In this document: one piece after another, positions 1-29,831 of the stretch
Position numbering within the stretch: position 1 is the first letter of the stretch
Layout of the letters: each line of letters opens with the position of its first letter
IMG/VR virus record: IMGVR_UViG_3300020190_002979
Location: 1 to 35,693 of that record
Source of the DNA: a virus
DNA: 35,693 bases
Direction: 5' to 3' (one strand)
The notes under the pieces: generated by a model
Databases searched by the model: none
Told to the model about the DNA's origin: nothing
What the model saw: the letters and a program-made list of their open reading frames with translations, nothing else
Position numbers and translations under genes: made by a program

Positions 1-105
1 AAGAAAATAATTATAAAAATCTTTAGCAAAGTTTAATTTTTTATCATCGCTTTCAACTAAAAACTCTCTTATCTTGGTTTTAATAAATTTTCTCAAATCT
101 TTCAT
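1..105 (-). CDS. Partial leader-motif protein, N-terminus only
   Basis: The minus strand opens with ATG at 105 and stays open to the window edge, giving 35 residues. They begin MKDLRKFIKTKIREFLVESD. The basic/hydrophobic start ending in L-V-E matches the leader on many other proteins here. ATATTTATA lies 13 nt upstream. The remainder is outside the window, so no function can be given. Confidence 0.6.
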   Translation of the reverse strand, partial: MKDLRKFIKTKIREFLVESDDKKLNFAKDFYNYFL

Positions 106-118
106 CTTTTCTTTTATA

Positions 119-127
119 TATAAATAT
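119..127 (-). promoter_or_regulatory. ATATTTATA upstream element
   Basis: Exact ATATTTATA on the coding strand, 13 nt before the ATG at 105. Confidence 0.4.
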
Positions 128-182
128 TAAGAATTAAAACTTCCACCCTTTTTATTTCTTCTTGTAAATTTTTCATATCGTA

Positions 183-590
183 TTAACCATTATACTCAAC
201 ATCATTATCATCATAATACTCCTCCCAATATTCGTCTCCATCATGACCATAGGTTTTAACATTATTACCATTATCATTTCGAACTCCTACTTGCCAAGCA
301 TTTTCATTTTCATAATAAAACCAGTAATGTTTTCCGTTTATTGGATTAACATCCACCAAAAATACATCACTACCGTTTTTAATTTTTTGTGATATATTTT
401 TTTCAGGTTTAATTTTTTGCATAAATAAAGTTTCTAAAATAAACATTATTTTTTCATCATCAGTAATATTAAAATTATAATAAATGTCTTTTAGATATGG
501 GGGCGAAATTAAAAATGCAACTTTTTTAAGTTGGTTTATATTATCGACCTCTTCCTTTATGATATAATTAATTTTTTTTCTATTAATCAT
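183..590 (-). CDS. Leader-motif protein, acidic C-terminus
   Basis: The product is 135 aa and begins MINRKKINYIIKEEVD, with an I-K-E site near residue 12. The following part (I-x-P-P-Y-L near residues 29-33) resembles the start of the plus-strand protein at 29331-29831, which has I-K-E-E-V-D followed by I-E-P-P-Y. The two are probably paralogues in their N-terminal half. The C-terminus is rich in Asp, Glu, Tyr and Trp. It contains no catalytic motif I recognise. It lies 3 nt downstream of the next leader-motif gene, so the two are probably cotranscribed. Capsid packaging is inferred from the leader only. Confidence 0.7.
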   Translation of the reverse strand: MINRKKINYIIKEEVDNINQLKKVAFLISPPYLKDIYYNFNITDDEKIMFILETLFMQKIKPEKNISQKIKNGSDVFLVDVNPINGKHYWFYYENENAWQVGVRNDNGNNVKTYGHDGDEYWEEYYDDNDVEYNG

Positions 591-593
591 TTT

Positions 594-1235
594 TTATTTA
601 CATTGACCCCATTCGAAACTTCTTACTCTACATCTTTTTTTACTAGTCACACTTATGTTAAACGCACATAGTATTGCATTTACCAACCATAAACCTATTA
701 AAGTTACTAATACTACACTAGCAATAGTTAATACTAAAGCTGGCATAGTAAAACTACCAAATAGTGTAACAAGTGCCATAGAAGTTCCAAAAAATTCTTT
801 TAAAACTTCTTCATCACCTGATTCAGTTTTTTCTGCTTCAGATTTTTTAGCTTTTAAATTTTTAAATAACTTTTTTAAATCTTTAACTGTTAAAGTATTT
901 AAAAAGTCCACAAACTTATTTATATATTCTTTTATAATATTTAATATTTCTGTTGCCTTATCTTTAAATTTTTCTTTAACAACTTGACCGAATTTCTTTT
1001 CAACATATGAATCCATATCAGACATTTGACAAATTTCTGTATTGTCTAATGAATTAATTACGTCTTCTTGGTTGGTTAGGGATATACCTATTTCATTCAT
1101 TATTTCTTCACCACCATCTGATTTTAATTCATCCATAAATGACATTTTATTGTCATCATCTATATCATATTCTTTAAGTAATTTTTTATTCGCCTCTAAT
1201 ATTAACTCTCGTTTTATTTTACTAATTCTTCCCAT
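594..1235 (-). CDS. Leader-motif protein with C-terminal membrane segments
   Basis: The 213-aa product starts MGRISKIKRELILEANKKLL, with L-I-L-E and L-K-E sites in the first 22 residues. Residues of about 25-145 are charged and helical. Two hydrophobic stretches at about 150-190 could span a membrane, and a short Arg/Cys-rich tail follows. I do not recognise the family. A soluble, Lys/Glu-rich N-terminal half plus membrane helices would suit a capsid-internal protein that inserts in the host membrane after injection, but that is speculation. Confidence 0.65.
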   Translation of the reverse strand: MGRISKIKRELILEANKKLLKEYDIDDDNKMSFMDELKSDGGEEIMNEIGISLTNQEDVINSLDNTEICQMSDMDSYVEKKFGQVVKEKFKDKATEILNIIKEYINKFVDFLNTLTVKDLKKLFKNLKAKKSEAEKTESGDEEVLKEFFGTSMALVTLFGSFTMPALVLTIASVVLVTLIGLWLVNAILCAFNISVTSKKRCRVRSFEWGQCK

Positions 1236-1255
1236 AACAATTTTTTTTCTTTTTT

Positions 1256-1483
1256 TTATTTACATATTGTACTTTGTATTGCTGACCACCAAGTATCTGA
1301 TTCATCTACTTCTGAATTACCTGTCATACCATACTCATCCAATTCCTTTCTTATTTCAATAGTCGATTCTTTCCACATTCTTAAAGGTTTTTTTATTTTA
1401 TCCCACATCTTAGGATTTTCTTTCATTGTCCCTATATGGTTTTCTAATAATTCTATACCTTCTTCATATGTATCTACACTCAT
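1256..1483 (-). CDS. Small hypothetical protein
   Basis: This 75-aa protein begins MSVDTYEEGIELLENHIG and is mostly amphipathic helix with several Trp. It matches no family I know. The reading frame continues upstream without a break to the TAA of the 13-codon frame at 1514-1555, so the gene may once have carried that leader. Confidence 0.55.
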   Translation of the reverse strand: MSVDTYEEGIELLENHIGTMKENPKMWDKIKKPLRMWKESTIEIRKELDEYGMTGNSEVDESDTWWSAIQSTICK

Positions 1484-1513
1484 AATATTACAAATGTCTT
1501 TCTTTTTAGAAGT

Positions 1514-1555
1514 TTATTCTTTTAATACTTTTCTAATTATATTTTCTATATTCAT
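1514..1555 (-). other. 13-codon frame encoding only a leader motif
   Basis: ATG at 1555 opens a frame encoding MNIENIIRKVLKE followed directly by TAA. This is the same type of leader seen on full proteins here (compare MKNTIRKILKEE at 2762). ATATTTATA lies 3 nt upstream. The frame is in phase with the 75-aa gene starting at 1483. It may be a leader cut off by a stop mutation, or a free peptide. Confidence 0.45.
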
Positions 1556-1558
1556 ATC

Positions 1559-1567
1559 TATAAATAT
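1559..1567 (-). promoter_or_regulatory. ATATTTATA upstream element
   Basis: Exact match on the coding strand, 3 nt before the ATG at 1555. Confidence 0.4.
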
Positions 1568-1569
1568 TA

Positions 1570-2223
1570 TTAAAGTTTAGAATCTATGTCTGCACCAATT
1601 AATTTATAAACGGGTCTATCCCCATGTGGTTCAATTCCACCAATTGGTGGTTCAATTAGTGTCGCCCCAAGTGCTTGATATTTTTTATAATAATTTCTTA
1701 CAGAAGATTCGTTATATTTTGTCAATCCTCCCCATCCCCACGATCCTTGCACTGCAAATATTTTAGCATTAGGAAATGTTTTTTTAACTGCAGAAAATAA
1801 TCCATCAATATCGTTTTCAAAATTAGAATAACCACCATTAGTTCCCGTACAAAGAATTACATTTTGAACTTCAGGACTTACTGGGTATTTTTTTACAGAA
1901 TCTCTTAACCAATTTACAGTTGTACTTCCTTTTTGTAAAGTTGATTCCCCTTCAGAACCTGATATCATTTGTGCTTTACTTGTCCTTTTTGCGACGTATT
2001 TTGTTTGTGAGTCCCCTATAATTATATTTTTTGGTGTTTTACCTTCTTCAGTGTTTTGTTCTTTTGAATTATCCTTTTTTATACCCTTCCATAATTCACT
2101 ACCAATATAATCAGTTTTGTCTCCAGAACCACCTTCATCCGCACCCATTTTGGTAAATAAAACTCCACTACTGTATTCAATAAGATGTTTAATTTTATTT
2201 ATTTCCTCATTTAAATTCCTCAT
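1570..2223 (-). CDS. Probable SGNH/GDSL hydrolase with leader motif
   Basis: The product has 217 aa. Residues 1-16 (MRNLNEEINKIKHLIE) carry the leader with L-N-E. After a Gly/Ser/Thr linker, IIIGDSQTKYVAK gives an SGNH block I with GDSQ at 70-73, where Ser72 would be the nucleophile. ILCTGTNGGYSN at about 123-134 fits block III, with G-x-N near 127-129. A late G-I-E-P-H-G-D (about 196-202) could supply the catalytic His of block V. SGNH enzymes are esterases or deacylases acting on lipids, peptidoglycan or polysaccharide acyl groups. With the leader, a virion-carried esterase is a reasonable inference. The substrate is unknown and block II is weak. Confidence 0.6.
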   Translation of the reverse strand: MRNLNEEINKIKHLIEYSSGVLFTKMGADEGGSGDKTDYIGSELWKGIKKDNSKEQNTEEGKTPKNIIIGDSQTKYVAKRTSKAQMISGSEGESTLQKGSTTVNWLRDSVKKYPVSPEVQNVILCTGTNGGYSNFENDIDGLFSAVKKTFPNAKIFAVQGSWGWGGLTKYNESSVRNYYKKYQALGATLIEPPIGGIEPHGDRPVYKLIGADIDSKL

Positions 2224-2231
2224 CAGTAAAA

Positions 2232-2762
2232 TTACTTACCATATATTATTTCTTCAAGTTTTCTTTTAGATACTTTAATTATTTCCCCTTGATTATAAGG
2301 TCTTAATTGACTCATTTGTTTTGCGGTAGACACTGAATATCTATTTTCATTTTCAAACCATTGACCATCTTTATTAACAAATATTGGGTACCAATTATAA
2401 GAATAAACTACATACACACCTTTCACATAGTTTGCGTGTGTGTTACTACCTTTAAAAGGTATTTTTGCGGTAACTAAATCTCTTCCTGTTGAATTACTAG
2501 TAGATAACTTTTTTTTAGTAACATCAGTTCTAATTAATTCATCGTATTCATCTTTAAAATAATTATCTTTGAATAATTGAAATAATTCAAACGCATCTAA
2601 CCCAGAAAACCCAAAGTTTTTATCAATAAACTGAATAATTTTACTATATGGAGTTTTAAGGTCAAAACCCTCATCTTTTAATGTTTTGATAACATATTTC
2701 TCTAATTTTTCTTTTCTGTCATCAACTTCCTCTTTTAATATTTTTCTGATAGTATTTTTCAT
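2232..2762 (-). CDS. Leader-motif protein with shared helical domain
   Basis: The 176-aa product starts MKNTIRKILKEEVDDRKEKL. After the leader, residues of about 22-70 contain a helical pattern ending F-G-F-S-G-L-D-A-x-E-L-F-x-L-F. The same pattern is seen in the proteins at 12630, 15415, 19687 and 25918, so this is probably a common small domain. The C-terminal half is Tyr- and Asn-rich and unrecognised. The gene is followed after 8 nt by the SGNH hydrolase gene. Confidence 0.65.
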   Translation of the reverse strand: MKNTIRKILKEEVDDRKEKLEKYVIKTLKDEGFDLKTPYSKIIQFIDKNFGFSGLDAFELFQLFKDNYFKDEYDELIRTDVTKKKLSTSNSTGRDLVTAKIPFKGSNTHANYVKGVYVVYSYNWYPIFVNKDGQWFENENRYSVSTAKQMSQLRPYNQGEIIKVSKRKLEEIIYGK

Positions 2763-3075: not shown

Positions 3076-3726
3076 TTACATTTTTTGCCAATTATTTTTT
3101 AAAAAATCTTTTTTAACATTTTCATGTTCGTAGTTGGGTAATTCAATTGCCCTATCTTTCAGTATTGATTTTAACTCATCGTGTAGATTAATGGTGTTGG
3201 TATATTTACCTAATTGTTCTTTCCAAAACTTTTTAGAGAACCAAGATTCTATATCACTACCACTAGATTCTATTTTTTTTAGTAATCCCTTAGTTAACCA
3301 AGGATCTATCAGTCCAACAAAATCGTAATCATTTAAAACATTTTGTATTTTTAAAGATCCTGTGGAAAAACCATTTACAGAAGTTATATCTAAATTATTT
3401 GTATTATATAAAATAGAATTTTTTTGTTGTGTTAATTTTTGAACGTCTTTAATTAAATCATTAAAACCCTTATCAAATCTAGATAAAATAACTATTTTAC
3501 TTTTTAATAATTCTTCTGGTATATCTTTCAGTAATTCTTCTGGTGTGTCTAATAAACCGCCATATATAACTGTTGCCTGATTGGTGTCGTTATTTGGTTT
3601 ACTAACAATGTATTTTTTAGATTTTTCTAATTGATGATCACCCATATCCTCAATAGAATTATCATCTAATTCTAATCCCATCATTGATTTGATTTTCTCT
3701 ACCTCTTCGTTTAAAATATTTTTCAT
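3076..3726 (-). CDS. Leader-motif protein, possible alpha/beta-hydrolase fold
   Basis: I chose the ATG at 3726, giving MKNILNEEVEKIKSMMG. It restores the leader (L-N-E) and overlaps the stop of the upstream microgene as ATGA. The 217-aa protein has alternating strands and helices. N-G-F-S-T-G-S-L near the middle resembles the nucleophile elbow (G-x-S-x-G) of alpha/beta hydrolases, and L-I-D-P-W follows about 20 residues later. The acid and histidine cannot be placed with confidence, so the enzyme call is weak. It lies next to the SGNH hydrolase block and shares its leader type. Confidence 0.6.
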   Translation of the reverse strand: MKNILNEEVEKIKSMMGLELDDNSIEDMGDHQLEKSKKYIVSKPNNDTNQATVIYGGLLDTPEELLKDIPEELLKSKIVILSRFDKGFNDLIKDVQKLTQQKNSILYNTNNLDITSVNGFSTGSLKIQNVLNDYDFVGLIDPWLTKGLLKKIESSGSDIESWFSKKFWKEQLGKYTNTINLHDELKSILKDRAIELPNYEHENVKKDFLKNNWQKM

Positions 3727-3809
3727 ACTACAAATCCATAAGCAGTGATTAAAAGTGCCATCATTATACACATAAAAATGTACCATAATTTTTCTTCTAA
3801 TTCTTCCAT
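3723..3809 (-). CDS. 28-aa single-span membrane protein
   Basis: It begins MEELEEKLWYIFMCIMMALL and continues as one hydrophobic helix to a TGA stop. That stop overlaps the next gene's ATG by 4 nt, which argues for translational coupling. ATATTTATA lies 9 nt upstream. No family is recognised. Confidence 0.55.
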   Translation of the reverse strand: MEELEEKLWYIFMCIMMALLITAYGFVV

Positions 3810-9537: not shown

Positions 9538-10506
9538 ATGGAAACTTGTAAAATTTGTAAAGAAACTTTTAACAACCTAAAAGGGTTAAGTAATCATGTT
9601 AATGCTAAACATAATATTAGTAGTAAAAAATACTATGATAAATATCTGAAAAAAGAAGATGAAGGGCAATGTACTGTTTGTGGTAACCAAACTACTTACC
9701 GAAATTTTGGTGTTGGTTATTTAAAAAATTGTTCACTAGAGTGTAGAGATAAAAATAAAACAATCAAACGTGATTATTGGAAAGGTAAACGTCAATCAAA
9801 AGAAACTATAACTAAAAGGGTTCAAAATACAAACCAAAAAACTAAACAGTTGAATTGGGAGTTATCTAATATGAAAAAGTATGGTGTAACCAATCCAACT
9901 AAATTAGATTCAATTAAAATTAAAATTAGTAAATCACTTAAAGGTGTTGGTAAACCTAGAACCAATAAATGGCAAAATAAAATTATTAAATCAAAAAGAA
10001 AAAATGGGACTTTAAATCACTCCGAAGAAACTAAAAATAAAATTAGGGATGGCATCAATAAGTATTATTTGTCAAATTTAGATAGAGAAAAATATATTTC
10101 TAAGTCAAATAATAATAAACATTTTTGTGGTTGGTATAATGGGTTATATTTTAGAAGTTCATTAGAATTATCTTTTTTAGTTTTAAATAGTCATACAACA
10201 TTTATTAGTTGTGAAAGAAATCAATATAAAATAATATATGATAAAGATGGTAAACAAAAAGTTTATTATCCAGATTATACTGATGGTGATAATATTTATG
10301 AAATTAAACCAACTAAATTACTTAAATACAAAGATAATGAATTAAAAATTAATAAGGGTTTAGAATTATATGGTGGTAAATATAAAATTATCACTGAAAA
10401 AGAAGTACCCTATATAGAAAAAACTAAAATATTAGATTTAATCGAATCTGGAATTGTTAAAGTTAATGAAAAAACATTAAAAATAATAGAAAGATATAAT
10501 CATTAA
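9538..10506 (+). CDS. Homing endonuclease, zinc finger plus PD-(D/E)xK
   Basis: The 322-aa protein opens with a C2H2 finger (C-K-I-C ... H-V-N-A-K-H, residues 4-25). A C-x-x-C zinc element follows (C-T-V-C ... C-S-L-E-C, about 45-73), then NUMOD-like K-x-S-E-E-T-K-N-K-I-R repeats. The C-terminal domain has R-S-S-L-E-L, V-Y-Y-P-D-Y and I-Y-E-I-K-P, the layout of a PD-(D/E)xK nuclease. Free-standing phage homing endonucleases often combine such DNA-binding and nuclease modules. It cuts cognate alleles to spread itself. It sits between unrelated genes and is plus-strand among minus genes. It could be mistaken for an HNH enzyme, but no HNH motif is visible. Confidence 0.75.
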   Translation: METCKICKETFNNLKGLSNHVNAKHNISSKKYYDKYLKKEDEGQCTVCGNQTTYRNFGVGYLKNCSLECRDKNKTIKRDYWKGKRQSKETITKRVQNTNQKTKQLNWELSNMKKYGVTNPTKLDSIKIKISKSLKGVGKPRTNKWQNKIIKSKRKNGTLNHSEETKNKIRDGINKYYLSNLDREKYISKSNNNKHFCGWYNGLYFRSSLELSFLVLNSHTTFISCERNQYKIIYDKDGKQKVYYPDYTDGDNIYEIKPTKLLKYKDNELKINKGLELYGGKYKIITEKEVPYIEKTKILDLIESGIVKVNEKTLKIIERYNH

Positions 10507-15414: not shown

Positions 15415-16539
15415 TTAAAATATATGGTGGAAATTATTTACTACAAAATAACTTTGGTTGTCTATATCGACTGTCATTAAGTGATCAGTGTTTAACGCAT
15501 TACCAATCATCTCTTTTATCATACCCATCTCATCAAATTCAATAACATTTTCTTCTATTGCCTCTTCTATTGTTAATTCCGACCCTCTAATATAGTCATA
15601 AGGATTGCCCATATAATCTTCATATATTTCTTCATATCTATAATGGGTATACATTTTAATGATATCTTCTTTCGATGGGGTTTTTTCTTTCAGATCTTCT
15701 ATCTCATCCTCTAAACTTGAGATATACATTAATAAATTATTATATTCCTCACTTAATTCATTTATTTTAGTTTCTATGATATCTAAATATTTAGTGTACT
15801 CATCGGAATCATCTTCATCATCTATTTGTTGTAGTATAATTAATTTTTCAGATTCCAACTTATCTATTTTTTTAAGTATTGAATTTTTATTTTTATTACT
15901 AATTTTTAATTCAACTTCATTTTCCTCTACCATTTCTTTATTATATTCAATATCTTCAATAGTATTCCCATCACCGATATAATTTAACATTTTATATGGT
16001 GACATATTAGTTATCTCCTCCTCAATTATTTCAGTTATATTGTAATCTAATATTTCCTCATTTAATTTCATGTATTTTTCTAATATCCAAACACTATAAC
16101 CATCAAATTCAGTTTGAACCATTTTTTCTCTAATACTTCTAACTAAATCGTCATATGTACCAACTTCATATAAATTATTATTTGGTATATAGTTATATAT
16201 TTCTAAATCATAGGTAATTCCCCTAAAAACAAATAATTCTGGATCAACATTTAGTGATTGGGCAATCGCTCTAACTTCATCACTATAATCATTTTCTGAT
16301 GGTACAACCCAATTAATAGTTTCGTCATACATTTCATCATCCCCAACTGAATTATTTTTATATAACTTTATGACTCTACTAATAATATCTTTATCATCAA
16401 TATGTAATTCTTTATTTAAAGTTTTATATATATCTGTTGAATTTTTCGATATAGAATTTTTATGTAGATAATTAAGTAATTTTAATTCTACTTTATTAAC
16501 ATTATTAATGTCTTCTTTTATTAATCCTCGCAATTTCAT
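15415..16539 (-). CDS. Leader-motif, coiled-coil virion-type protein
   Basis: The 374-aa product begins MKLRGLIKEDINNVNKVELK (I-K-E at 7-9). The shared helical domain follows (about residues 18-65; E-L-H-I-D-D-K-D-I). A central region then contains F-D-G-Y-S-V-W-I-L-E-K-Y, and there is a long charged coiled coil at about 200-295. It is similar in layout to the protein at 19687-20787, as a paralogue would be. There are no catalytic motifs. Its ATG is overlapped by the stop of the upstream zinc protein. Confidence 0.7.
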   Translation of the reverse strand: MKLRGLIKEDINNVNKVELKLLNYLHKNSISKNSTDIYKTLNKELHIDDKDIISRVIKLYKNNSVGDDEMYDETINWVVPSENDYSDEVRAIAQSLNVDPELFVFRGITYDLEIYNYIPNNNLYEVGTYDDLVRSIREKMVQTEFDGYSVWILEKYMKLNEEILDYNITEIIEEEITNMSPYKMLNYIGDGNTIEDIEYNKEMVEENEVELKISNKNKNSILKKIDKLESEKLIILQQIDDEDDSDEYTKYLDIIETKINELSEEYNNLLMYISSLEDEIEDLKEKTPSKEDIIKMYTHYRYEEIYEDYMGNPYDYIRGSELTIEEAIEENVIEFDEMGMIKEMIGNALNTDHLMTVDIDNQSYFVVNNFHHIF

Positions 16540-17420
16540 ATACCTGGCCCAAATACTGATGTTACACTAAAATGTGTAATATAGTTATTGTAACTCTCAA
16601 TATCAGTAACTTCATTAGAACCATGAGGTAAATCATTTTCATATACCTCATCAAAAGTTTGTGTATAATCTTTTCTAATGATCATATATATGTTGTCTTT
16701 ATTAATTTCGAAAAAATCTGTAACATCTCCATTACCAGGATCTTTTAATTTACCTATATTCAGTACAGTATACTGTATCTCTTCTAATAAATAATAATGT
16801 TCTCTATCGTACCATTCACCAGATCCATCACAATAACTACAAGTTATTTTTCCATGTCCATCACAATCATTACAAGTTTCGTTACTCGCACCTCTACATT
16901 CACTACATTCTATTTCTTGTTCTTCACCCTCATCATCTGTTTCCATTTCCACACCACTACCACCGCAATAACCACATTCTAAACTACCCTCTCCATCACA
17001 AGTAGTACATTCTACTTCACCTTGACCATCACAATCATCACATCTTTCAGTTAAATCCCTATAATCTTCTTTAATCTCATCGGTAGTAGTTATGTACGTT
17101 AAAGTGTATTCCTCACCAGTGGAGAGTCTATCAGTTAAAAAATTGTCTACATTTAAATTAATGATAAATAAAAAAATTAAATCATTAGTTTGTTTCACAC
17201 TTAAATGTAATTCATCTTGAAAAAAATTCCTTAATTCTCTAAATTCTGATGTAAGGACTAGTGAATGATCTTCATAACAATCAGAACAATTTATTTTTGT
17301 TAAAAAATAATTTTTTAATTTTGGGTGGTTATTAGAAAACAAATTTAAACATTTTCGATAAAAGGTATTATCTAAATTAAAAGTATCAGTATTTTCATTG
17401 ATTATATTAATAAACTTCAT
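16536..17420 (-). CDS. Leader-motif protein with six C-x-x-C zinc motifs
   Basis: The product has 294 aa and begins MKFINIINENTDTF (I-N-E at 7-9). Residues 127-197 hold six C-x-x-C pairs, at 127/130, 138/141, 149/152, 172/175, 183/186 and 194/197. They form two triplets with an exact 11-residue spacing, each followed by G-x-G-like turns as in the DnaJ cysteine-rich domain (C-x-x-C-x-G-x-G). DnaJ has four such pairs and binds two zinc ions. Here there is no J-domain. An unfolded-protein binding or RNA-binding role is possible. Confidence 0.7.
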   Translation of the reverse strand: MKFINIINENTDTFNLDNTFYRKCLNLFSNNHPKLKNYFLTKINCSDCYEDHSLVLTSEFRELRNFFQDELHLSVKQTNDLIFLFIINLNVDNFLTDRLSTGEEYTLTYITTTDEIKEDYRDLTERCDDCDGQGEVECTTCDGEGSLECGYCGGSGVEMETDDEGEEQEIECSECRGASNETCNDCDGHGKITCSYCDGSGEWYDREHYYLLEEIQYTVLNIGKLKDPGNGDVTDFFEINKDNIYMIIRKDYTQTFDEVYENDLPHGSNEVTDIESYNNYITHFSVTSVFGPGI

Positions 17421-17681: not shown

Positions 17682-18068
17682 TTATTTCTTTTTACGTCCT
17701 TGACAATGTGCCCTTTGTGAAAAACCTTTTGGGTTATTACAATCAATAGATTTCTTATACTTCTGAGACCATTTTTCTTCCAACATATCAGAAGACATCT
17801 TTTCACCTTTTAATTTATTCATAAAGAAATCAAATACTTGATCGATATTAACCTTAGCCTCAGTTATGTGATCATCTGCCCAATCATGTCCATCATTTAA
17901 AATGTCATTTACTTTATTAGGATCAAATTCTTTAATCATAATATCTAATTGTCTTCTCATTTGAGTTAGGTTACTAAAAAACATATAGTTTTCACCTTTA
18001 GATTCTTCATTTAAAGTCTCTATAACTATTCTATAAAGATCTTTTTCTGTTAATGTTACTTTTTTCAT
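17682..18068 (-). CDS. Leader-motif protein, basic C-terminus
   Basis: The 128-aa protein starts MKKVTLTEKDLYRIVIETLN, with L-T-E at 6-8 and L-N-E at 19-21. The middle is helical. The tail D-C-N-N-P-K-G-F-S-Q-R-A-H-C-Q-G-R-K-K-K is Cys- and Lys-rich and resembles motifs in other phage virion proteins. Its stop lies next to the ATG of the 88-aa cupin-like gene. Function unknown. Confidence 0.65.
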   Translation of the reverse strand: MKKVTLTEKDLYRIVIETLNEESKGENYMFFSNLTQMRRQLDIMIKEFDPNKVNDILNDGHDWADDHITEAKVNIDQVFDFFMNKLKGEKMSSDMLEEKWSQKYKKSIDCNNPKGFSQRAHCQGRKKK

Positions 18069-18079: not shown

Positions 18080-19657
18080 TTACCACCAAGTTCCTCCACC
18101 TGATAATCCTAATTGTTTTGCGTATCTAGGTAGTCTACAACTCCAATAACCTGCACTACATTTATCATTCTTTTGGGGGCAATTATGTCTATCAGAAAAC
18201 GCCTTCCTAGCCTTAGGATCTCTAAGTTTAACTGCCAAATTACCTCCACCAGATTTTGCACCAAAGGATACTTTTTTAACTTTACCGTTACACATTACAT
18301 AAACATAAAATTTCTTAGAACCACCTCTTTTAGGTTTACTAAGTTCTACTTTTTTACCTTTATATTCTGCCTCATTTAAATCATAATATTCGTTAGGTAT
18401 GTCTAACCATACTAATTTACCTTCATATAAACCTTGTTTACCTATGTCGGTTTTAATCATTTCTAAATCATTTTGAGATAAATCTACTTTACCCTTTAAA
18501 TATAAATCCCTAACTTCATTTATTAAATTGAAAAAGGATTTACTTCCGTATCTATAAACTGTTTCCGTTAAAGGTATTTGATTGTCTACGTGATATTTTA
18601 AACCTTCACTAATGATAGTTCTACTTTCAGTTAGTAACATTCTATCATAGTTTAAAGATTCATTCTTTTTAGATTTATATCCTTTAATTTTAATCGGACT
18701 AGGAGATTGTCCTTTACCTGATTTACCGTCATTCTTTTCTTTTTCTCTCTTACGTCTACAAGCCGAATCTTTTGCAGATTGACTCATATTAGCTGCCACA
18801 CTCTTTGCTCTACAAACTGGGTAACCTCCTTTATCGGAATCACCTCTACCACATTCAGGATGACCACCACCTTCTTTTTTTCTACATATGTTTACCCAAG
18901 GTCCTTGTGGTTGTTTACTACCTTTACCTTTTTTCTTAGTACCAAACCATACCGCCAAATCTTCGTGAATTTTTATATCGTGAAATGAATCTAAATCTTG
19001 TGCCATTTCAGGTGACCAAGATTCGTTTTTACTACCCGAACAATAATTTCCACTACATCTTTTTTTACCATCTAATCCTTTAATTTTACCTTTACATACT
19101 TGAACCGCATATCCATTAGCGTAGGCAGATGGATAAACATCGAACTTACTTTTGGCGGCACTAACACCTCTAGCACATAGTTTATTAGATTTTTTCTTTT
19201 TACCTTCATCTAAATTTTCTACACCTTCTTCATCTTCTTCTTTATGACTATTCGGCATAATAGTTATACCATACCTATTCAATATCTTTTCTAATGCGAT
19301 AGGAATTGCCATAGACACCGCACCCATACTCATAACTGCAACAATCTTTGCAATATCTTTAGATTGTGATTTTAAAAATTTTATATCTCTTTCAGAAACT
19401 TCTTTGTTTGAAAGTAAGTTACCTAATATCTTTACTGCCTCAACAGTTTCAGACTTTTCTCTTTTTGCGATATTAACAAAATTTTTCCATGAGTTAATCA
19501 TGTCTTCTTTTTTGTTATTAAAAAGGGATTTCATTTTATCACCAAATTCATTAACTACTTTAGGTTCTTCTTCTGAAAATAAACCAGTTGACTTACCATC
19601 AAACCTCATTTCATTAAATAACCTCTTGTATTGTTCTATACCTAATTTTATCTTCAT
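18080..19657 (-). CDS. Large leader-motif protein, multi-domain
   Basis: The 525-aa protein starts MKIKLGIEQYKRLFNEMRFD. A hydrophobic segment occupies about residues 108-130. A Lys/Gly/Cys-rich part with A-R-G-V-S-A-A-K-S-K-F-D-V-Y-P-S-A-Y-A follows; similar stretches occur in many phage proteins, including DUF5872-like ones. The C-terminal part has F-Y-V-Y-V-M-C-N-G-K-V and ends S-G-G-G-T-W-W. Internal L-T-E (342-344) and I-S-E (349-351) sites lie between the two parts and look like cleavage points in a polyprotein. A virion or scaffold role is inferred. Confidence 0.7.
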   Translation of the reverse strand: MKIKLGIEQYKRLFNEMRFDGKSTGLFSEEEPKVVNEFGDKMKSLFNNKKEDMINSWKNFVNIAKREKSETVEAVKILGNLLSNKEVSERDIKFLKSQSKDIAKIVAVMSMGAVSMAIPIALEKILNRYGITIMPNSHKEEDEEGVENLDEGKKKKSNKLCARGVSAAKSKFDVYPSAYANGYAVQVCKGKIKGLDGKKRCSGNYCSGSKNESWSPEMAQDLDSFHDIKIHEDLAVWFGTKKKGKGSKQPQGPWVNICRKKEGGGHPECGRGDSDKGGYPVCRAKSVAANMSQSAKDSACRRKREKEKNDGKSGKGQSPSPIKIKGYKSKKNESLNYDRMLLTESRTIISEGLKYHVDNQIPLTETVYRYGSKSFFNLINEVRDLYLKGKVDLSQNDLEMIKTDIGKQGLYEGKLVWLDIPNEYYDLNEAEYKGKKVELSKPKRGGSKKFYVYVMCNGKVKKVSFGAKSGGGNLAVKLRDPKARKAFSDRHNCPQKNDKCSAGYWSCRLPRYAKQLGLSGGGTWW

Positions 19658-19686: not shown

Positions 19687-20787
19687 TTATATTCTATAAA
19701 TATAATATGTTTCACCATTATACGTTTCGTCCTCTTTTAAAATGATAATAACTTCACGTCCATCATAACCAGCTAGTGATGAACCTCTATCTTCTGTTTC
19801 TGCTAAATTCGCTTCAAATCCTGATTGATCAAAATTGAAAAATCTATTTATTGCGTCTGTTCTAGTGTAGCCCATTTCATCCGTAAAATAATCTAAACCT
19901 TCACTTTCAATTCTTTCCTTATATTTTTCTTCCAATTCCTCCATTAATTCTTCTTTAGCGACATCCAATAACTCTTCTAATTCATTTTGTTTATACTCTA
20001 ATTGGGATTCTAAATCACTTAGTTCATCACTCAATTCTCTCATTCTAATACTTATTTTTTCTATATCAGAATCAAGATTCCCATCTTCATTTTCATCTTC
20101 CAGATCACTCATCTCATCATCTAATGAAGATATTTCTTCAGAAATTTCCTCTATTTTTGCCTCAATTTCTTCTATATTATTTTTAATTTCATCTTCATCG
20201 TAACCAGCTTTACTAATTATTTGTTCATCACTCATATCTTCTATTTCTCGATTTGCCTCATCGTATGCCAAATCATTCAATACGTAGTAATCAATTTCAA
20301 GATAATCTTCCAAATCCCAACTATTTATATTATCTAAACCAAGTTCATCAACCCACCCGTCAAAACGTTGTTCCATTGCACGTGTTGCGTCATCATCATC
20401 ACCAACTGCATAATATCTATCAGATTCCAAATCCTTATAAACATTTAAACCATAATGATTATAAGATTCTTTTATTATCAATACTGGTGGTAAATCTAAA
20501 AATTCTGATAATGCCAAATGTTCATTATCATAATAAGAAATATCATCCATATCTTCTAAATCTGAATCAGTTAAATTTTCATAATTACCATCTTCATTAA
20601 AATGATTTAAAAATAAATGAAGTAGTTCATTTTTAAGATCCATATCAGAGATATTTAAAACTTTAGTTAAAAATGACCATGTTACGGAAACATCATCAGT
20701 TTCCCCCAAAGAAAGTGTCATTGCCCTAAGAACTCTTTTATGTATTGGTTGGATGGTATTTTCTGTTATAAGTTTACTTAATTTCAT
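19687..20787 (-). CDS. Leader-motif, coiled-coil virion-type protein
   Basis: The 366-aa product starts MKLSKLITENTIQPIHKRVL (I-T-E at 7-9). The shared helical domain covers about residues 17-65. The middle contains Y-A-V-G-D-D-D-D-A-T-R-A-M and L-A-Y-D-E-A-N-R-E-I-E-D-M-S-D-E-Q-I. A long Glu-rich coiled coil occupies about 200-285. It is a paralogue of the protein at 15415-16539. The protein is strongly acidic, and the C-terminus is more globular. Confidence 0.7.
   Translation of the reverse strand: MKLSKLITENTIQPIHKRVLRAMTLSLGETDDVSVTWSFLTKVLNISDMDLKNELLHLFLNHFNEDGNYENLTDSDLEDMDDISYYDNEHLALSEFLDLPPVLIIKESYNHYGLNVYKDLESDRYYAVGDDDDATRAMEQRFDGWVDELGLDNINSWDLEDYLEIDYYVLNDLAYDEANREIEDMSDEQIISKAGYDEDEIKNNIEEIEAKIEEISEEISSLDDEMSDLEDENEDGNLDSDIEKISIRMRELSDELSDLESQLEYKQNELEELLDVAKEELMEELEEKYKERIESEGLDYFTDEMGYTRTDAINRFFNFDQSGFEANLAETEDRGSSLAGYDGREVIIILKEDETYNGETYYIYRI
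19695..19703 (-). promoter_or_regulatory. ATATTTATA upstream element
   Basis: Exact match on the coding strand, 37 nt before the ATG at 19657. It overlaps the final codons of the upstream gene. Confidence 0.3.
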
Positions 20788-21052: not shown

Positions 21053-21547
21053 ATGGAAGAAAGAGTTTTAAATTTATTAAACGAACAGATATGGTTCGAA
21101 AACAGAGCATCTCATTATTATTTAAACCTATCAGTTTTATGTGAGTCAAAAGGTTTTAAAGGTATATCTAAATTTTTTAGAGAACAATCAAATGAAGAAA
21201 GAGAACACATGTTAAAAATATGTGATTACATTTTAGAACAAGATAGATTACCAATAATTCCGTCAACTACATTTTTAAATGATAATGATTTGGATTTTGA
21301 TAATCTATTAAAGATATTTGAGGATAGTCTTTTTAATGAAAAAGAAATCACCAACTCATTCCATAAAATTATTTATGCTTGTAGAGAATTAGGTGATTTC
21401 ACTACCGAAAGTTTCATTCAATGGTTTATAGAAGAACAAAGAGAAGAGGAATCTAAATTTAAGTCCTTAATTGATGAATTAAAGATTATCGGAGGTAATA
21501 CCACAGGAGGTTTATCTTTATACCTTTTTGATAAGAATATTTCTTAG
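21053..21547 (+). CDS. Ferritin, non-haem
   Basis: The 164-aa length matches bacterial ferritin. Ferroxidase residues are in place: E16 in F-E-N-R-A-S, E49/H52 in N-E-E-R-E-H-M, a helix C Glu (about 95), and E-E-Q-R-E-E-E late in the protein. P-S-T-T-F and Y-L-F-D-K fit the family ends. Ferritin oxidises Fe(II) and stores Fe(III) in a 24-mer shell. The ATG directly follows the bS21 stop (TAAATG), so the two are coupled. A phage ferritin could hold iron for virion assembly or limit oxidative damage. The role is inferred. Confidence 0.9.
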   Translation: MEERVLNLLNEQIWFENRASHYYLNLSVLCESKGFKGISKFFREQSNEEREHMLKICDYILEQDRLPIIPSTTFLNDNDLDFDNLLKIFEDSLFNEKEITNSFHKIIYACRELGDFTTESFIQWFIEEQREEESKFKSLIDELKIIGGNTTGGLSLYLFDKNIS

Positions 21548-23942: not shown

Positions 23943-23943
23943 A

Positions 23944-25139: not shown

Positions 25140-25568
25140 TTAAGTTAGTTGATTTGCGGGTCCTCTAGCTGGTTCTACCGCCCAAGGTGAATTATCTATT
25201 GGATTCGCAACTCCTCTATTCACATCTTTAAGAGGCCAAACAGTTGCGGGTGCACCTGCTGGGGCACTACTAGATTCTTCCTCATCTAACAATTCTTCAT
25301 CAAATTGTTTAGTGTAATCATCTACACCTATACCATATTCGGTTACTACTAAACCATATCCACCTTCCTTATCGTAATACCCCAAATATATTCCTTTATC
25401 GTCATATACTACAGTTTCATAAGAATTACTTTCAAAGTTAAGTTTTTTAGGTTCATTATTAACCCATTTAAGTATTTTTTTATACCAACTTTTAGGATTT
25501 TTGATTGTCTCACCAAATTCTCTAATTAGTATTTTCTTATATTGACTTTCTGTAATTATTATTTTCAT
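25140..25568 (-). CDS. Leader-motif protein, Ala/Pro-rich tail
   Basis: The ATG at 25568 gives MKIIITESQYKKILIREFGE (I-T-E at 5-7) and shares its A with the upstream TGA. A further possible start is upstream and non-ATG. The 142-aa protein has a basic helix, a small strand-rich middle (Y-D-D-K-G-I-Y-L-G-Y-Y) and a disordered tail rich in Ala, Pro and Ser. It belongs to a three-gene block of leader proteins. Function unknown. Confidence 0.65.
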   Translation of the reverse strand: MKIIITESQYKKILIREFGETIKNPKSWYKKILKWVNNEPKKLNFESNSYETVVYDDKGIYLGYYDKEGGYGLVVTEYGIGVDDYTKQFDEELLDEEESSSAPAGAPATVWPLKDVNRGVANPIDNSPWAVEPARGPANQLT

Positions 25569-25921
25569 CACCAATTTCTTTGTCTATTATTAATAACATT
25601 TAAAAGTTTAACTTTTATATTTCCTTTACCTGTTGTTTCTTTTATTTGTTTTTCTAAATCATAAAAAAACATACCTACATCTGCGGTATCAAAAATAGTG
25701 TCAATATAAACTATTAATCCTATTTCATTATCAAACGCAGTTACAACCTCAACATTTTCTACCGTATCTAAAATTGTTTCACAATCCAAATCTTCATCAG
25801 AGTAATCCCAATTATCATCCTCTGTGGAATTCTCACAAATTTCCTTTAAATCATTAAACGCGATATCAACTATTTTTTGATAGACAGTTATAAGTTGATT
25901 TTCGGTTATTAAAACTTTCAT
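25568..25921 (-). CDS. Leader-motif protein, acidic
   Basis: The 117-aa product starts MKVLITENQLITVYQKIVDI (I-T-E at 5-7). It is Asp/Glu-rich with a strand-helix pattern. Its start overlaps the previous gene's stop (ATGA), as is usual in this block. No catalytic motif. Confidence 0.65.
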   Translation of the reverse strand: MKVLITENQLITVYQKIVDIAFNDLKEICENSTEDDNWDYSDEDLDCETILDTVENVEVVTAFDNEIGLIVYIDTIFDTADVGMFFYDLEKQIKETTGKGNIKVKLLNVINNRQRNW

Positions 25922-26496
25922 TCTTTTAAATCAATATACTGTTCTAATTGTTTTGGTGACCATTCATTATAAAAATCATGTAAAATATCGGCTGACATAT
26001 CTCTCTCAAGTTTCGCTTCATAAAGTTCCCAATCTAATTCAACTGATGAATTATAAACTGAATCAATTATATCGACTTTAAAACTAGGGTTATCGATTAA
26101 TTGGGAGGCGTTGTATAATGCCTCTTCTCTCGATCCAGCCCTTATGGTTATTTGATAATCAAAAAATGTTCTGGCTTCAACTATCGCAGGTAATGCAACA
26201 TTAATTATATAAGTTCCCTGAAATTCTAATGGTTCACCCAAAAAAGATTCATATTCACTTTCGGGTGTGTTTTCAAAACTTTTTTCATAATTATTAATTA
26301 TTGTTGTCGCATCTAGATCACTTAAACCCCAATTTTTTTTTAAATCCTCAGTAGTTTCATTTGTGTCAGTATAAACTTTTTTTAGATATCTCATAATCTT
26401 TATTATCTTTGGGGTAATAGTATTACCTATAGATAATGATTCACTATCATCCTCAAATAATTTTTTATATTGACTTTCAGTTAATCTAATTTTCAT
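25918..26496 (-). CDS. Leader-motif protein with shared helical domain
   Basis: The 192-aa protein starts MKIRLTESQYKKLFEDDSES (L-T-E at 5-7, nearly the same opening as the 25140 gene). About residues 27-75 match the shared helical domain (W-G-L-S-D-L-D-A-T-T-I-I). The rest has mixed alpha/beta features with a Glu-rich C-terminus. Its start overlaps the membrane-protein gene by 11 nt. Confidence 0.65.
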   Translation of the reverse strand: MKIRLTESQYKKLFEDDSESLSIGNTITPKIIKIMRYLKKVYTDTNETTEDLKKNWGLSDLDATTIINNYEKSFENTPESEYESFLGEPLEFQGTYIINVALPAIVEARTFFDYQITIRAGSREEALYNASQLIDNPSFKVDIIDSVYNSSVELDWELYEAKLERDMSADILHDFYNEWSPKQLEQYIDLKE

Positions 26497-26800
26497 TGGT
26501 TTCTGATTCTTCTTTTTTATTTCTAGATTCGGTAACAGTTTTTATAACATTTAAAAATTTACCACCAAAAGTATAACCAGCAAATAATACCATAGAATAT
26601 TCTAATGCATCTATAATAATTTCAAATCTATTTAAATCTATCACACTATCTTTAGAGACACCTTTAAACATTAAAACCCCTAATGTTATATAATGTGCAA
26701 TTACTGCCCATAACAAATAAACTCTACTTTGGGAATATTGTCCCTTTTCTGTTAACATGTCTTTAAAAATATTCATAATATGTTTAATTTTTTTACTCAT
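26486..26800 (-). CDS. Two-helix membrane protein, possibly leader-bearing
   Basis: The 104-aa product has two hydrophobic helices at about residues 27-45 and 65-90, joined by an acidic loop and followed by a charged tail. If translation begins at the second Met (26776), the start would be MNIFKDMLTEKGQYSQSRV, a good leader with L-T-E. The longer start at 26800 is kept because ATATTTATA lies 26 nt upstream. Holin or virion-membrane roles are both possible. Confidence 0.6.
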   Translation of the reverse strand: MSKKIKHIMNIFKDMLTEKGQYSQSRVYLLWAVIAHYITLGVLMFKGVSKDSVIDLNRFEIIIDALEYSMVLFAGYTFGGKFLNVIKTVTESRNKKEESETNEN

Positions 26801-27202: not shown

Positions 27203-27208
27203 AAAAAA

Positions 27209-27225
27209 GGGGGAATAAATCCCCC
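27209..27225 (-). terminator. Terminator after the FKBP-type gene
   Basis: The stem GGGGG/CCCCC with a 7-nt loop is followed by six T on the minus strand. It lies 23 nt past the isomerase stop. Confidence 0.75.
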
Positions 27226-27248
27226 CACTGAAACACTATTATTTTTTT

Positions 27249-27671: not shown

Positions 27672-27721
27672 TTTTTAATTTTTTTAAATAATAGTGATAA
27701 AAAAAATAATAGTCAATACTA

Positions 27722-28114: not shown

Positions 28115-28140
28115 GTTTATTCTGATTTAGGTAGTTTTTA

Positions 28141-28224
28141 TTAAGATACGGATATCGCTATAATAGTGATAAAAGTAAACCATATAGCAATTATGATTAT
28201 TGTTACTAAATTTGAATTTTTCAT
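28141..28224 (-). CDS. 27-aa membrane peptide
   Basis: MKNSNLVTIIIIAIWFTFIT, then a few more hydrophobic residues to TAA. One transmembrane helix. It lies between two other small minus-strand genes. Confidence 0.4.
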   Translation of the reverse strand: MKNSNLVTIIIIAIWFTFITIIAISVS

Positions 28225-28234
28225 CTTTTAAAGA

Positions 28235-28396
28235 TTATATATCCATTAAAAATATTAAAATCAATATTGGTATCCATAGTGGTGCAGTTACCCACCACCA
28301 ACTCCAATCAATATTATCAGTTAACTTTAAAACCATAAAAATAAGGAAGAGTATCACACCCAATCCTAAACCACTAGATGAACTTTTTTCACTCAT
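28235..28396 (-). CDS. Small membrane protein, Trp-rich turn
   Basis: The 53-aa product begins MSEKSSSSGLGLGVILFLIF. Two hydrophobic helices flank D-W-S-W-W-W-V-T-A-P-L-W-I-P. The tryptophan-rich turn and length recall a small phage membrane family of unknown function. Confidence 0.6.
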   Translation of the reverse strand: MSEKSSSSGLGLGVILFLIFMVLKLTDNIDWSWWWVTAPLWIPILILIFLMDI

Positions 28397-28406
28397 AATT
28401 TATTAT

Positions 28407-29063
28407 TTATATTCTTTTTTCGTGATGATCTTTTGGTAAACACAATTTTTTGATTGGTTGGTTTTTAACAATAGTTAAAATTTCATCCATAGATATTGGA
28501 TATAAGTTATTACCATCTACACCCACATCTAATGATTTACCATCCCCTAATCGTAAATTAGGTGGTAAATGTACGTGTCCATGTAAGTGAATGACACCAT
28601 CATTCATACTGTCCCAAGACGCAATCGGATAATGCATACATACGAATGAATATTTATCCATTTGATTTTTACCCACTATCGATGGTCTACGAATATCTAA
28701 GAACAAATAATCGTGTGTTGATGAAAATATTTTCTGTATATCTTCTTTATCTTTACGGATATGGTGATCGTGATTACCATAAGTTAAATGAATGTTCTTA
28801 CAGATTATTCTATTACGAAATTCCTCAATTTTTTCAAACCCACCAAAACTCCAATCACCTAAATGAATTAGTATATCATCTTCACCAACAATTTCATTAA
28901 TGTTATTCACTAATGTATCGTTCATATGATTAAGTGAATTAAATTTACGGGTTAGATTTTCCGCACCTACCCATTTAGTAGTTGCAGAACAAATATTTGC
29001 GTGATTGTAGTGTGTATCACTCGTAAAAAATAAACGTTGTCCCTTTTCTAAAACTAATTTCAT
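28407..29063 (-). CDS. Metallophosphoesterase, calcineurin-like
   Basis: The 218-aa product has F-F-T-S-D-T-H-Y-N-H (residues 12-21), I-H-L-G-D-W-S-F-G-G, L-T-Y-G-N-H-D-H-H and H-L-H-G-H-V-H. These are the metal ligands of a dinuclear calcineurin-like phosphoesterase. The substrate (nucleotide, cyclic nucleotide or nucleic acid end) cannot be read from sequence. It has its own Bacteroidetes-type promoter at 29068-29099. Confidence 0.85.
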   Translation of the reverse strand: MKLVLEKGQRLFFTSDTHYNHANICSATTKWVGAENLTRKFNSLNHMNDTLVNNINEIVGEDDILIHLGDWSFGGFEKIEEFRNRIICKNIHLTYGNHDHHIRKDKEDIQKIFSSTHDYLFLDIRRPSIVGKNQMDKYSFVCMHYPIASWDSMNDGVIHLHGHVHLPPNLRLGDGKSLDVGVDGNNLYPISMDEILTIVKNQPIKKLCLPKDHHEKRI

Positions 29064-29067
29064 AAGA

Positions 29068-29099
29068 CAAATATAAGTATAATTTTTTATATAATCAAA
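29068..29099 (-). promoter_or_regulatory. Bacteroidetes-type promoter
   Basis: Minus-strand TTTG (29099-29096), a 20-nt spacer and TATATTTG (29075-29068). The -7 box is 5 nt from the ATG at 29063, so the leader is extremely short or the start is slightly downstream. Confidence 0.6.
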
Positions 29100-29296
29100 T
29101 TATTTCTCTCAAAAAAAAAAATATTACAGGTTTTTGTTCTACCTTTATTAACCCATAATCTTTTGCCAATCTATAATTAGGTGTATCTCTTTGTAACCTA
29201 TCAATAGATGACTCAACAATATTTCGAAACATTTCTAATGAATAAGTGGATTTCCATTTATTACATCTAGGACATGAAGGTAATAAATTATCAAAA
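29095..29296 (-). pseudogene. C-terminal remnant of an HNH endonuclease
   Basis: An in-frame stretch without a start codon encodes F-D-N-L-L-P-S-C-P-R-C-N-K-W-K-S-T-Y-S, then about 40 residues to TGA at 29095. N-L-L-P-S-C-P-R-C-N-K-W-K-S is typical of the second half of phage HNH nucleases, after the catalytic His. The first half is missing and the frame runs into stops beyond 29296. The break coincides with the start region of the plus-strand gene at 29331. Confidence 0.55.
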
Positions 29297-29304
29297 AAAT
29301 TATT

Positions 29305-29313
29305 ATATTTATA
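29305..29313 (+). promoter_or_regulatory. ATATTTATA upstream element
   Basis: Exact match on the coding strand, 17 nt before the ATG at 29331. Confidence 0.4.
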
Positions 29314-29330
29314 AAATAAAAACTAAAATT

Positions 29331-29831
29331 ATGAAAATTAAAAAAGACAGAAAAACAATTACTTTATCTCGTATCGTTAACAGAGTGATTAAAGAAGAAG
29401 TAGATAAAGAAGAAAGGTTTATCAATAAAATAGTCAAGTTTATTGAACCACCATATTTTTTTAATTTAGATTCGTTAGGTGTACCTTACCATTTATATGA
29501 AAAAATATTATCAATAAAATTTGGTGAGGAGGTAGATTATGAAGAAGATAAAGATGGGTTTGATTATCTAAATGTATATGATTCAAGAGGTAATAGAATA
29601 TATTCTGAAAATATATTTGAACGTACTTGGTCAAAAGAAGAATATGATTCAAGAGGTAATAGAATATATTCTGAAAATTCAACTGGAAATTGGCGGAAAA
29701 TGAAATATGATTCAAGTGATAATCTGATATATTCTGAAGATGAGAATGGGAAATGGAGGAAATATACATATGTTGGTAATATGGTATATTCTGAAAATGC
29801 TGATGGGAGTATTTTTAGTTGGGAGAGATGA
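29331..29831 (+). CDS. Leader-motif protein with Y-D-S-x-G-N repeats
   Basis: The ATG at 29331 gives 166 aa beginning MKIKKDRKTITLSRIVNRVI, followed by K-E-E-V-D. The earlier in-frame Met only adds a poorly coding leader. After I-E-P-P-Y-F, which matches the 183-590 protein, four repeats of about 22 residues run from about residue 83 to 160 (Y-D-S-R-G-N-R-I-Y-S-E-N, then variable). They resemble RHS/YD-type beta repeats. Two adjacent repeats share 36 identical bases, so copy number may change. The gene lies between two truncated genes on the other strand. Confidence 0.65.
   Translation: MKIKKDRKTITLSRIVNRVIKEEVDKEERFINKIVKFIEPPYFFNLDSLGVPYHLYEKILSIKFGEEVDYEEDKDGFDYLNVYDSRGNRIYSENIFERTWSKEEYDSRGNRIYSENSTGNWRKMKYDSSDNLIYSEDENGKWRKYTYVGNMVYSENADGSIFSWER
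29577..29678 (+). repeat. Direct repeat inside the repeat-protein gene
   Basis: A 36-base sequence at 29577-29612 recurs exactly at 29643-29678, a 66-base period equal to one 22-residue protein repeat. Confidence 0.85.

Follow-up and report, generated by a model that had tools for sequence, protein, structure and literature searches.

In a 35,693-base stretch of viral DNA (IMG/VR record IMGVR_UViG_3300020190_002979; present in full and called the window below), proteins with otherwise dissimilar bodies open with a short leader built around the tripeptide (I/L)-x-E. This leader is a shared, exchangeable N-terminal unit whose boundary ends in Glu. The sets of proteins that carry it are best read as a greatly enlarged version of the internal-protein system of phage T4, for which the sequence makes a strong case, and we consider it likely that the leaders act as propeptides for capsid targeting, as in T4 internal proteins, on a much larger protein set. 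If this is true, phage genes that otherwise resist annotation would become a defined, sequence-readable set of proteins carried into the cell.

The window covers part of the genome of a large T4-like phage, and head genes are absent from it. Related IMG/VR contigs, designated here by G numbers, were reached through the 525-amino-acid window protein (18080-19657) and an A1-like protein (30995-32593). T4-like gp21 and gp23 genes are present in G004 (166 kb), G002 (254 kb), G011 (127 kb), and the more distant G014 (166 kb), and a gp20 match was found additionally in G004, G011, and G014. Another contig, G037, overlaps the right end of the window by 4,697 bases at 99.98% identity, so the two together represent ∼157 kb of a single phage population. 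Counts refer to contigs, which do not all stand for separate phages, since several overlap or are nearly the same; for example, G024 and G034 have identical 6-kb stretches in common, as do G035 and G036. Gene starts came from a simple in-house caller, which lost the 17682 frame to an overlapping frame. Among phage records resembling the 525-amino-acid protein, Flavobacterium phage immuto was the sole Bacteroidota isolate and Methylophilales phages matched about equally; the host of the window phage is presumably a member of the Bacteroidota.

The exchangeable nature of the leader is evident at the DNA level. In G004, genes 105022 and 105691 are identical at 68 of their first 69 bases, from the ATG to one codon beyond the Glu of I-R-E, and past that point their identity is at chance level. 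For class A leaders (defined below) that fit a strict pattern, the mean DNA identity of same-genome pairs was 0.74 in G004 (7 leaders, 21 pairs) and 0.82 in G022 (6 leaders, 15 pairs), dropping to 0.29 and 0.30, respectively, over the 45 bases after the leader, as compared to 0.48 and 0.44 over the 45 bases before it; the right edge is thus sharp and the left edge less so. That the bodies behind the leaders are unrelated, as an earlier note on this DNA had stated, holds in the relatives: the 51 profile-matched bodies of G004 fell into 51 separate clusters, and the 43 of G022 into 32, one with nine members (173 bodies in 114 clusters over six sets together; blastp E≤1e-4 throughout).

The same pattern emerged when no motif was specified. 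We searched each genome for protein pairs whose first 24 residues align well and whose remainder does not, and this recovered 46 of 202 proteins in G004 (42 with [ILV]xE, 8 with [ILV]xD), 38 of 283 in G002 (33 and 10), 14 of 109 in G011 (11 and 2), 40 of 348 in G022 (36 and 3), and 20 of 353 in G052 (16 and 8). Smaller numbers were found in immuto (13 of 196; 8 and 1), G014 (8 of 203; 4 and 0), G037 (4 of 115; 2 and 1), and phi17:2 (3 of 158; 0 and 3), and the window alone yielded no pair (0 of 49 proteins). At control residues 46-69, the same test returned zero in every genome tested. The lists for immuto and G052 also include signal-peptide-like starts; a dialect common to immuto and G014 reads MENFDLKKFLVENKL, and that of G052 reads MKNLIKQLLREN. 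A 63-kb T4 stretch gave 2 of 82 proteins, both with [ILV]xE and neither with [ILV]xD, the sole pair being IPII/IPIII, and the IPIII leader is an experimentally proven capsid targeting sequence (PMC9026906).

Within the window, the recurrence of the (I/L)-x-E leader described in the earlier note was borne out, as 15 of the 16 starts it listed (named here by the position of the start) had [IL]xE within 30 residues upon re-translation. The remaining one, 19657, had been called a looser match and indeed carries a degenerate leader (MKIKLGIEQYKRLFNE) with no [IL]xE within 30 residues; [IL]xE is found in 73 of 83 proteins similar to its product, many of which match only its C-terminal part. The "similar but weaker start" attributed to the gene at 12630 did not hold up, and it was rejected as a leader gene: it has no site and no profile score, and [IL]xE appears in only 4 of 19 homologs. 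Starts at 21053 and 23944 also have [IL]xE and were set aside as what we take to be ordinary family N-termini, and 21767, with [IL]xE in 16 of 17 homologs, was left out of the leader set as well. The "leader only" reading of 1555 was confirmed in that an in-frame stop cuts the leader from a body frame at 1256-1483, the two being one frame in two relatives; the stop, within 1484-1555, may be a natural loss or a sequencing difference.

The bare tripeptide is a weak signal, whereas the leader context is not. Among 43 window proteins, 21 have [IL]xE in the first 22 residues against 12.0 expected from internal segments (binomial p = 0.003), meaning that ∼12 of the 21 would occur by composition anyway. 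We used the Asp version, [IL]xD, as a control and compared residues 3-30 with residue 60 onward. The [IL]xE:[IL]xD ratio was 34:10 in the N-terminal portion of window proteins and 118:106 further on (odds ratio 3.05, p = 0.0018), with similar shifts in G004 (162:64 vs. 580:519, p = 8.5e-8) and G002 (189:90 vs. 846:805, p = 1.7e-7). An N-terminal excess of Glu over Asp was also found in G011 (p = 6.7e-5), G014 (p = 0.006), and immuto (p = 0.004), as well as in the later-fetched contigs G037 (p = 0.007), G022 (p = 2.9e-6), and G052 (p = 0.0009); no significant excess was seen in the parts of T4 and Melnitz examined or in complete phi17:2, a phage that lacks an S77 match (odds ratio 1.16, p = 0.28). 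With a stricter core (hydrophobic-x-x-hydrophobic-[IL]-x-E), the window ratio was 12:2 at residues 2-35 and 17:19 further on (p = 0.013), and the difference was significant in G037, G004, G002, G011, G022, and immuto and not in the G014, Melnitz, T4, and phi17:2 stretches. Of 18 window frames with this core within 45 residues, 9 are on the earlier list, 26800 is one more, and 8 are apparently due to chance.

Leaders were first sorted into classes by eye on G004 N-termini: class A (MKKIIRLTESDLxRIVKRVIKE), class B (MKIIITESQYKRLLxE, modelled together with A), class C (MNLQEEIxRIREMMGxxxE), class D (MKNLIKRILKEE), and a short class (MKFSDILKE). Classes A, C, and D were modelled as profiles, each with a threshold that let through 10 of 13,470 shuffled N-termini. 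Profile-marked proteins numbered 51 of 219 in G004, 40 of 308 in G002, and 20 of 114 in G011, counts that are circular because the profiles were trained on these three genomes; 13 of 4,142 internal segments matched. A search of relatives with a hidden Markov model of the leader, which the earlier note had proposed, was nonetheless positive in genomes held out of training, marking 13 of 127 proteins in G037 and 43 of 364 in G022, along with 7 of 53 in the window, also held out. The profiles marked 1 of 216 proteins in immuto and none in G014 or the stretches of T4, phi17:2, and Melnitz. In G037 and G022 taken together, A, C, and D matched 44, 7, and 15 N-termini; 2, 5, and 4 of 1,627 internal segments; and 0, 0, and 7 of 4,910 shuffled sequences, so the C and D profiles are less clean than that of A.

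Scored with these profiles, which were trained on other phages with thresholds set on shuffled decoys, 10 of the 16 listed window starts exceeded threshold (1555, 2223, 2762, 3726, 18068, 19657, 25568, 25921, 26496, and 29331). Start 590 fell narrowly below (7.1 vs. 7.8) and 105 and 1235 by a wide margin, while 16539, 17420, and 20787 belong to the shorter T4-like class, which lies outside the profiled classes. Over G004, G002, G011, and the window, [ILV]xE occurs within 45 residues in 116 of 118 leader proteins, 86 of which have at least two sites. A group of alike short leader proteins (MKIIITENQYKLIKENISLKEKLLGLIKKVGF) was seen in G022 (e.g., 78977, 116814, 166712, 239222, and 283644). A tblastn search of phage records with one 24-residue leader found nothing, although so short a query says little. 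The narrower pattern LTESDLTRIV had two exact DNA matches in a collection of bacterial and archaeal genomes, one within a 209-amino-acid protein and the other in no called protein containing the peptide.

The earlier note had suggested looking for a gp21-like protease gene, and this was found in the relatives though in neither the window nor G037. Of 18 records gathered around the cultured phages and first relatives, 13 matched Pfam family S77 (gp21), and the other five are contigs of 45-71 kb. In a leader-only IMG/VR search, the best 80 of at least 500 loci were used, the ranking favoring leaders like the query; 79 of the 80 had an ATG at, or at most 8 residues from, the leader start, and the 79 bodies formed 48 clusters. 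Behind these loci are 20 contigs of ∼95 kb or more (besides G004), of which 17 have S77 and exactly the same 17 have gp23. Two of the three S77-negative contigs share 6-kb stretches of 100% identity with S77-positive contigs and are thus likely fragments; the partner of the third is only partly similar. A further set of 19 records with A1-like genes, a count that includes G037, G054, and phi17:2, was dropped as a base rate for S77 since it is itself S77-rich (10 of 19); co-occurrence with S77 in general is therefore not a sharp statistic, and co-occurrence with gp23 is given instead. The gp21 sequences of the relatives all retain the His (18 of 18), and all 17 that extend far enough also retain Ser-Ser-Arg-Gly; we take these to be the catalytic residues. 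In G044 (the L272 record, 183695-185221), the S77 match is split into two pieces separated by ∼1.1 kb, both lying in 603-amino-acid open frames, and an insertion such as an intein in the protease is possible.

The capsid protein carries the same class of site. All 12 relatives examined have [LIV]xE in gp23 aligned at the T4 cleavage position, which we take to be LTE65; the sites are LNE (4), LTE (2), INE, LSE, VIE (2), VSE, and VTE, with [LI]xE in 8 of 12. All 90 distinct class A 26-mers from the best 80 loci have Glu at position 22 and I (80), L (5), or V (5) at position 20; K, N, R, and S predominate at position 21, and position 23 is highly variable. Positions 17-26 lay outside the search pattern, though within the similarity ranking. 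Such constancy of P3 and P1 beside variable P2 and P1' corresponds to the requirement of gp21 (L/I-x-E; PMC9026906).

Few leader proteins have a recognizable Pfam family. Scans at E≤0.001 covered 59, 66, and 54 leader proteins (179 in all); the first set listed 129 (60+47+22), of which 125 (59+66) were scanned (two spanning piece ends and two weak candidates were left out), and in the second set 54 of 56 were scanned (two spanning piece ends were left out). The recurring domains are peptidoglycan-active (PG_binding_1, LysM, Phage_lysozyme2, M23, NlpC/P60, and CHAP), and other matches include GDSL lipase, DUF192, Pterin_4a, the DnaJ zinc motif, and M78. For 59 leader proteins, PHROGs gave chiefly families named as endolysins or of unknown function, and one match each to tape-measure and tail families (25 of 32 families being listed). 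No ADP-ribosyltransferase and no known takeover or anti-defence family was found in the Pfam scans of the 179. With few families, recurrent cell-wall enzymes, and no known effector family, the "host-takeover effectors" proposed in the earlier note are a guess for most of these proteins. Nine window enzymes were taken as leaderless, eight above the Pfam cut-off and one just under it; the RNA ligase among them starts with a chance LNE.

In T4, injected proteins that are unrelated to one another are known to carry capsid-targeting leaders (PMC9026906, PMC3012670, PMC12373910), and the earlier suggestion of an undescribed delivery system is thus too strong. At least 10 internal proteins are reported in T-even phages, and T4 Ip1-Ip3 each block a distinct GmrSD enzyme (PMC12373910). 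In IPIII, residues 4 and 7 serve mainly for targeting and residues 8 and 10 for processing, and cutting fails when Asp replaces the Glu (PMC9026906). The leader sets resemble T4 IPI-IPIII and Alt in having a short propeptide ending in I/L-x-E, unrelated bodies, a gp21-family protease, and a matching capsid site, and the short class also matches in spacing (FINIINE and LSKLITE, from MKFINIINE and MKLSKLITE, vs. YQEFIAE from MKTYQEFIAE in T4). They differ in having tens of members per genome by leader profile, as opposed to about four in T4, and in their several leader classes and many two-site leaders, and their place in the virion is a prediction. We found no description of such leader sets in the literature searched, outside which most subscription papers and bioRxiv's own preprints fall.

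Other phages offer partial parallels. The phiKZ/SPN3US ejection proteins (gp175/gp245 prohead protease) are similar in that many proteins of one phage are trimmed after Glu, with phiKZ trimming many head proteins at S/A-x-E (PMC9026906). By contrast, the site here is I/L/V-x-E, accompanied by a clear S77 profile match, and P3 was I, L, or V in 90 of 90 class A leaders from the best 80 loci. Most leader proteins here are small, unlike the P1 Dar/Hdf and polyvalent proteins, for neither of which do we know of a shared short leader cassette. The likeness to Dar/Hdf is that of accessory proteins associated with heads (PMC12810830), and the likeness to polyvalent proteins is that these are predicted to be injected (PMC5512222). 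Polyvalent proteins unite several different enzymatic domains in one large polypeptide; few of the leader proteins matched a Pfam family at all.

If the T4 parallel holds, each protein would be docked on the scaffold of the prohead by its short, basic N-terminus, which probably forms an amphipathic helix and includes the core hydrophobic-x-x-hydrophobic-[I/L/V]-x-Glu. Cutting after the Glu at the leader's end would follow, by a gp21-type (S77) protease and at the same time as that of the capsid propeptide, and the freed mature proteins would remain in the head with the DNA until their ejection into the next host. The docking, cutting, packaging, and ejection steps, like any effector function, are ones that we infer. 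Because T4 internal proteins block different restriction enzymes, the leader set would be a plausible store of anti-defence or host-acting proteins. Going further, it is conceivable, though we would put it at somewhat below even, that the leader is a mobile targeting cassette by which any gene gaining ∼20 codons yields a head-packed, injected protein, so that 10-23% of genes would form a fast-evolving payload delivered before any phage gene expression, with each lineage's own dialect matched to its scaffold. The cultured phage immuto has such leaders, and the idea is testable there.

Several observations weigh against leaders that target the prohead for trimming and delivery. Because S77 was found in neither the window nor G037, and gp23 was not found in G037, the protease is placed by the relatives only; judging from the gene order of G002, the S77 gene of the window phage would be expected in the portion matching G002 201-253 kb or 1-38 kb. 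None of the 10 S77-positive records of the A1-like set has a class A leader at E≤0.001; G052, among the 10, has its own leader dialect. Homologs of T4 gp22, gp67, and gp68 at E≤0.01 (phmmer) were found in none of four relatives; by position, an acidic gene between gp21 and gp23 is a candidate for the scaffold gene. Positions 18 (R in 87 of 90) and 19 (V in 77 of 90) of class A leaders are conserved too, so that conservation is not confined to the cleavage site, and P1' of the leaders is often E, S, or N, unlike that of T4, which is usually A. The core motif also arises by chance, e.g., in the window RNA ligase and IMPDH, and the cell-wall hydrolase and tape-measure or tail matches leave tail or lysis roles conceivable.

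In a rival reading, the leaders would indeed take proteins to the prohead and be trimmed, yet those proteins would be components of the head core or inner body that remain there, with little being injected. The capsid protein's site of the same class, a suggested role of IPIII in T4 head morphogenesis (PMC9026906), and the lack of any effector family recognized by Pfam in 179 leader proteins would fit; however, the bodies appear too diverse for structural parts (51 proteins in 51 clusters in one genome) and several are enzymes, and we regard this as unlikely. We find it somewhat less probable still that the leader is another localization or regulatory tag (for a membrane, a phage compartment, degradation, or translation), with Glu as part of a helix. 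The mild similarity of the 45 upstream nucleotides (0.44-0.48), the existence of S77 phages without class A leaders, and the conserved positions 18-19 are in its favor, yet DNA identity stops about one codon past Glu, P2 and P1' are free to vary around a constant P3 and P1, as at a protease site, and the capsid cleavage position carries a tripeptide of this class as well. Chance, whereby low-GC phages rich in I, L, K, and E would be expected to have I/L-x-E near protein starts, could draw on the ∼12 of 43 window proteins expected from composition, the lack of a significant excess in phi17:2 and the T4 and Melnitz stretches, and the ∼8 of 18 core-motif frames that look accidental. It is largely refuted for classes A-D by the decoys (10 of 13,470 shuffled per class) and by the motif-free test with its zero at the control position, and the Glu:Asp contrast also speaks against it; the short class rests on fewer lines of evidence, and overall we consider this explanation very improbable. 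Least credible of all is a functionless spread of leaders by selfish or neutral recombination of gene starts. Neighboring genes with near-identical leader DNA are what it would predict, but diverged leaders retain P3 and P1, orthologs of several window proteins retain [IL]xE, and other phages have other dialects of the same form.

Table 1. Leader-bearing and associated open frames of the window.
Feature	Coordinates	Strand	Observations
Edge-truncated protein, leader MKDLRKFIKTKIREFLVE	1..105	-	IRE and LVE sites, core IREFLVE; low profile score
135-amino-acid protein, leader MINRKKINYIIKE	183..590	-	Core INYIIKE; profile D 7.1, just below threshold; single homolog, in G004, begins MNRILIKNIVKKILKED
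213-amino-acid protein, leader MGRISKIKRELILEANKKLLKE, hydrophobic stretches C-terminally	594..1235	-	Two sites; profile match absent; G002 homolog has similar body, different leader MKNIELELRKMKHLFEY
Body split off from 1555 leader by stop	1256..1483	-	G004 and G002 homologs join both in one frame
Leader MNIENIIRKVLKE, then immediate in-frame stop	1514..1555	-	Sequence; profile D 13.9
SGNH/GDSL-like protein (by eye), class C leader MRNLNEEINKIKHLIE	1570..2223	-	Profile C 25.7; no Pfam match at E≤1; homolog absent from relatives examined
176-amino-acid protein, class D leader MKNTIRKILKE	2232..2762	-	Profile D 24.3; leader in 3/3 homologs
Class C leader MKNILNEEVEKIKSMMG	3076..3726	-	Profile C 27.5; frame opens at 3786, internal Met at 3726; homolog absent from relatives examined
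374-amino-acid protein, T4-like short leader MKLRGLIKE	15415..16539	-	Core LRGLIKE; [IL]xE in only 5/15 homologs
DnaJ-type zinc-motif protein, T4-like short leader MKFINIINE	16536..17420	-	[IL]xE in 16/16 homologs; DnaJ_CXXCXGXG E=5e-5, under Pfam's own cut-off
128-amino-acid protein, class A leader MKKVTLTEKDLYRIVIETLNE	17682..18068	-	Profile A 29.0
525-amino-acid protein, degenerate class B leader MKIKLGIEQYKRLFNE	18080..19657	-	Profile A 9.4
Coiled-coil-like protein, T4-like short leader MKLSKLITE	19687..20787	-	[IL]xE in 18/18 homologs
Class B leader MKIIITESQYKKILIRE	25140..25568	-	Profile A 35.7; 14/14 homologs
Class B leader MKVLITENQ	25568..25921	-	Profile A 17.6; 5/5 homologs
Class B leader MKIRLTESQYKKLFE	25918..26496	-	Profile A 27.4; 14/14 homologs
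Possible extra member MSKKIKHIMNIFKDMLTE, small membrane-like protein	26486..26800	-	Absent from the earlier list; T4-like start, core FKDMLTE; without profile match; [IL]xE in 14/14 homologs
Class A leader MKIKKDRKTITLSRIVNRVIKE, C-terminal YDSRGNxIYSE-type repeats	29331..29831	+	Profile A 11.6; no Pfam match at E≤0.001

Some further features of the window were noted. The 525-amino-acid protein (18080-19657) contains two small domains without assigned function, phrog_27331 and phrog_7595, at residues 158-205 and 428-508. The former also matches Prochlorococcus phage P-SCSP2, one underlying feature being annotated as a capsid assembly scaffolding protein; for the C-terminal domain, a PDB fold search found nothing at E≤0.001 (model mean predicted local distance difference test score 77.5, predicted template modeling score 0.47). 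By eye, the YDSRGNxIYSE-type repeats of 29331-29831 resemble YD/RHS repeats, and the genes at 9538-10506 (without a homolog in the relatives examined) and 33977-34540 resemble those of homing endonucleases. The 605-amino-acid protein at 12630-14447 has a weak C-terminal match to polynucleotide kinase (phrog_415, E=8e-4). The A1-like "DNA transfer protein" at 30995-32593 is found in 1,123 phage records, with at least 80% of the query covered in 1,103.

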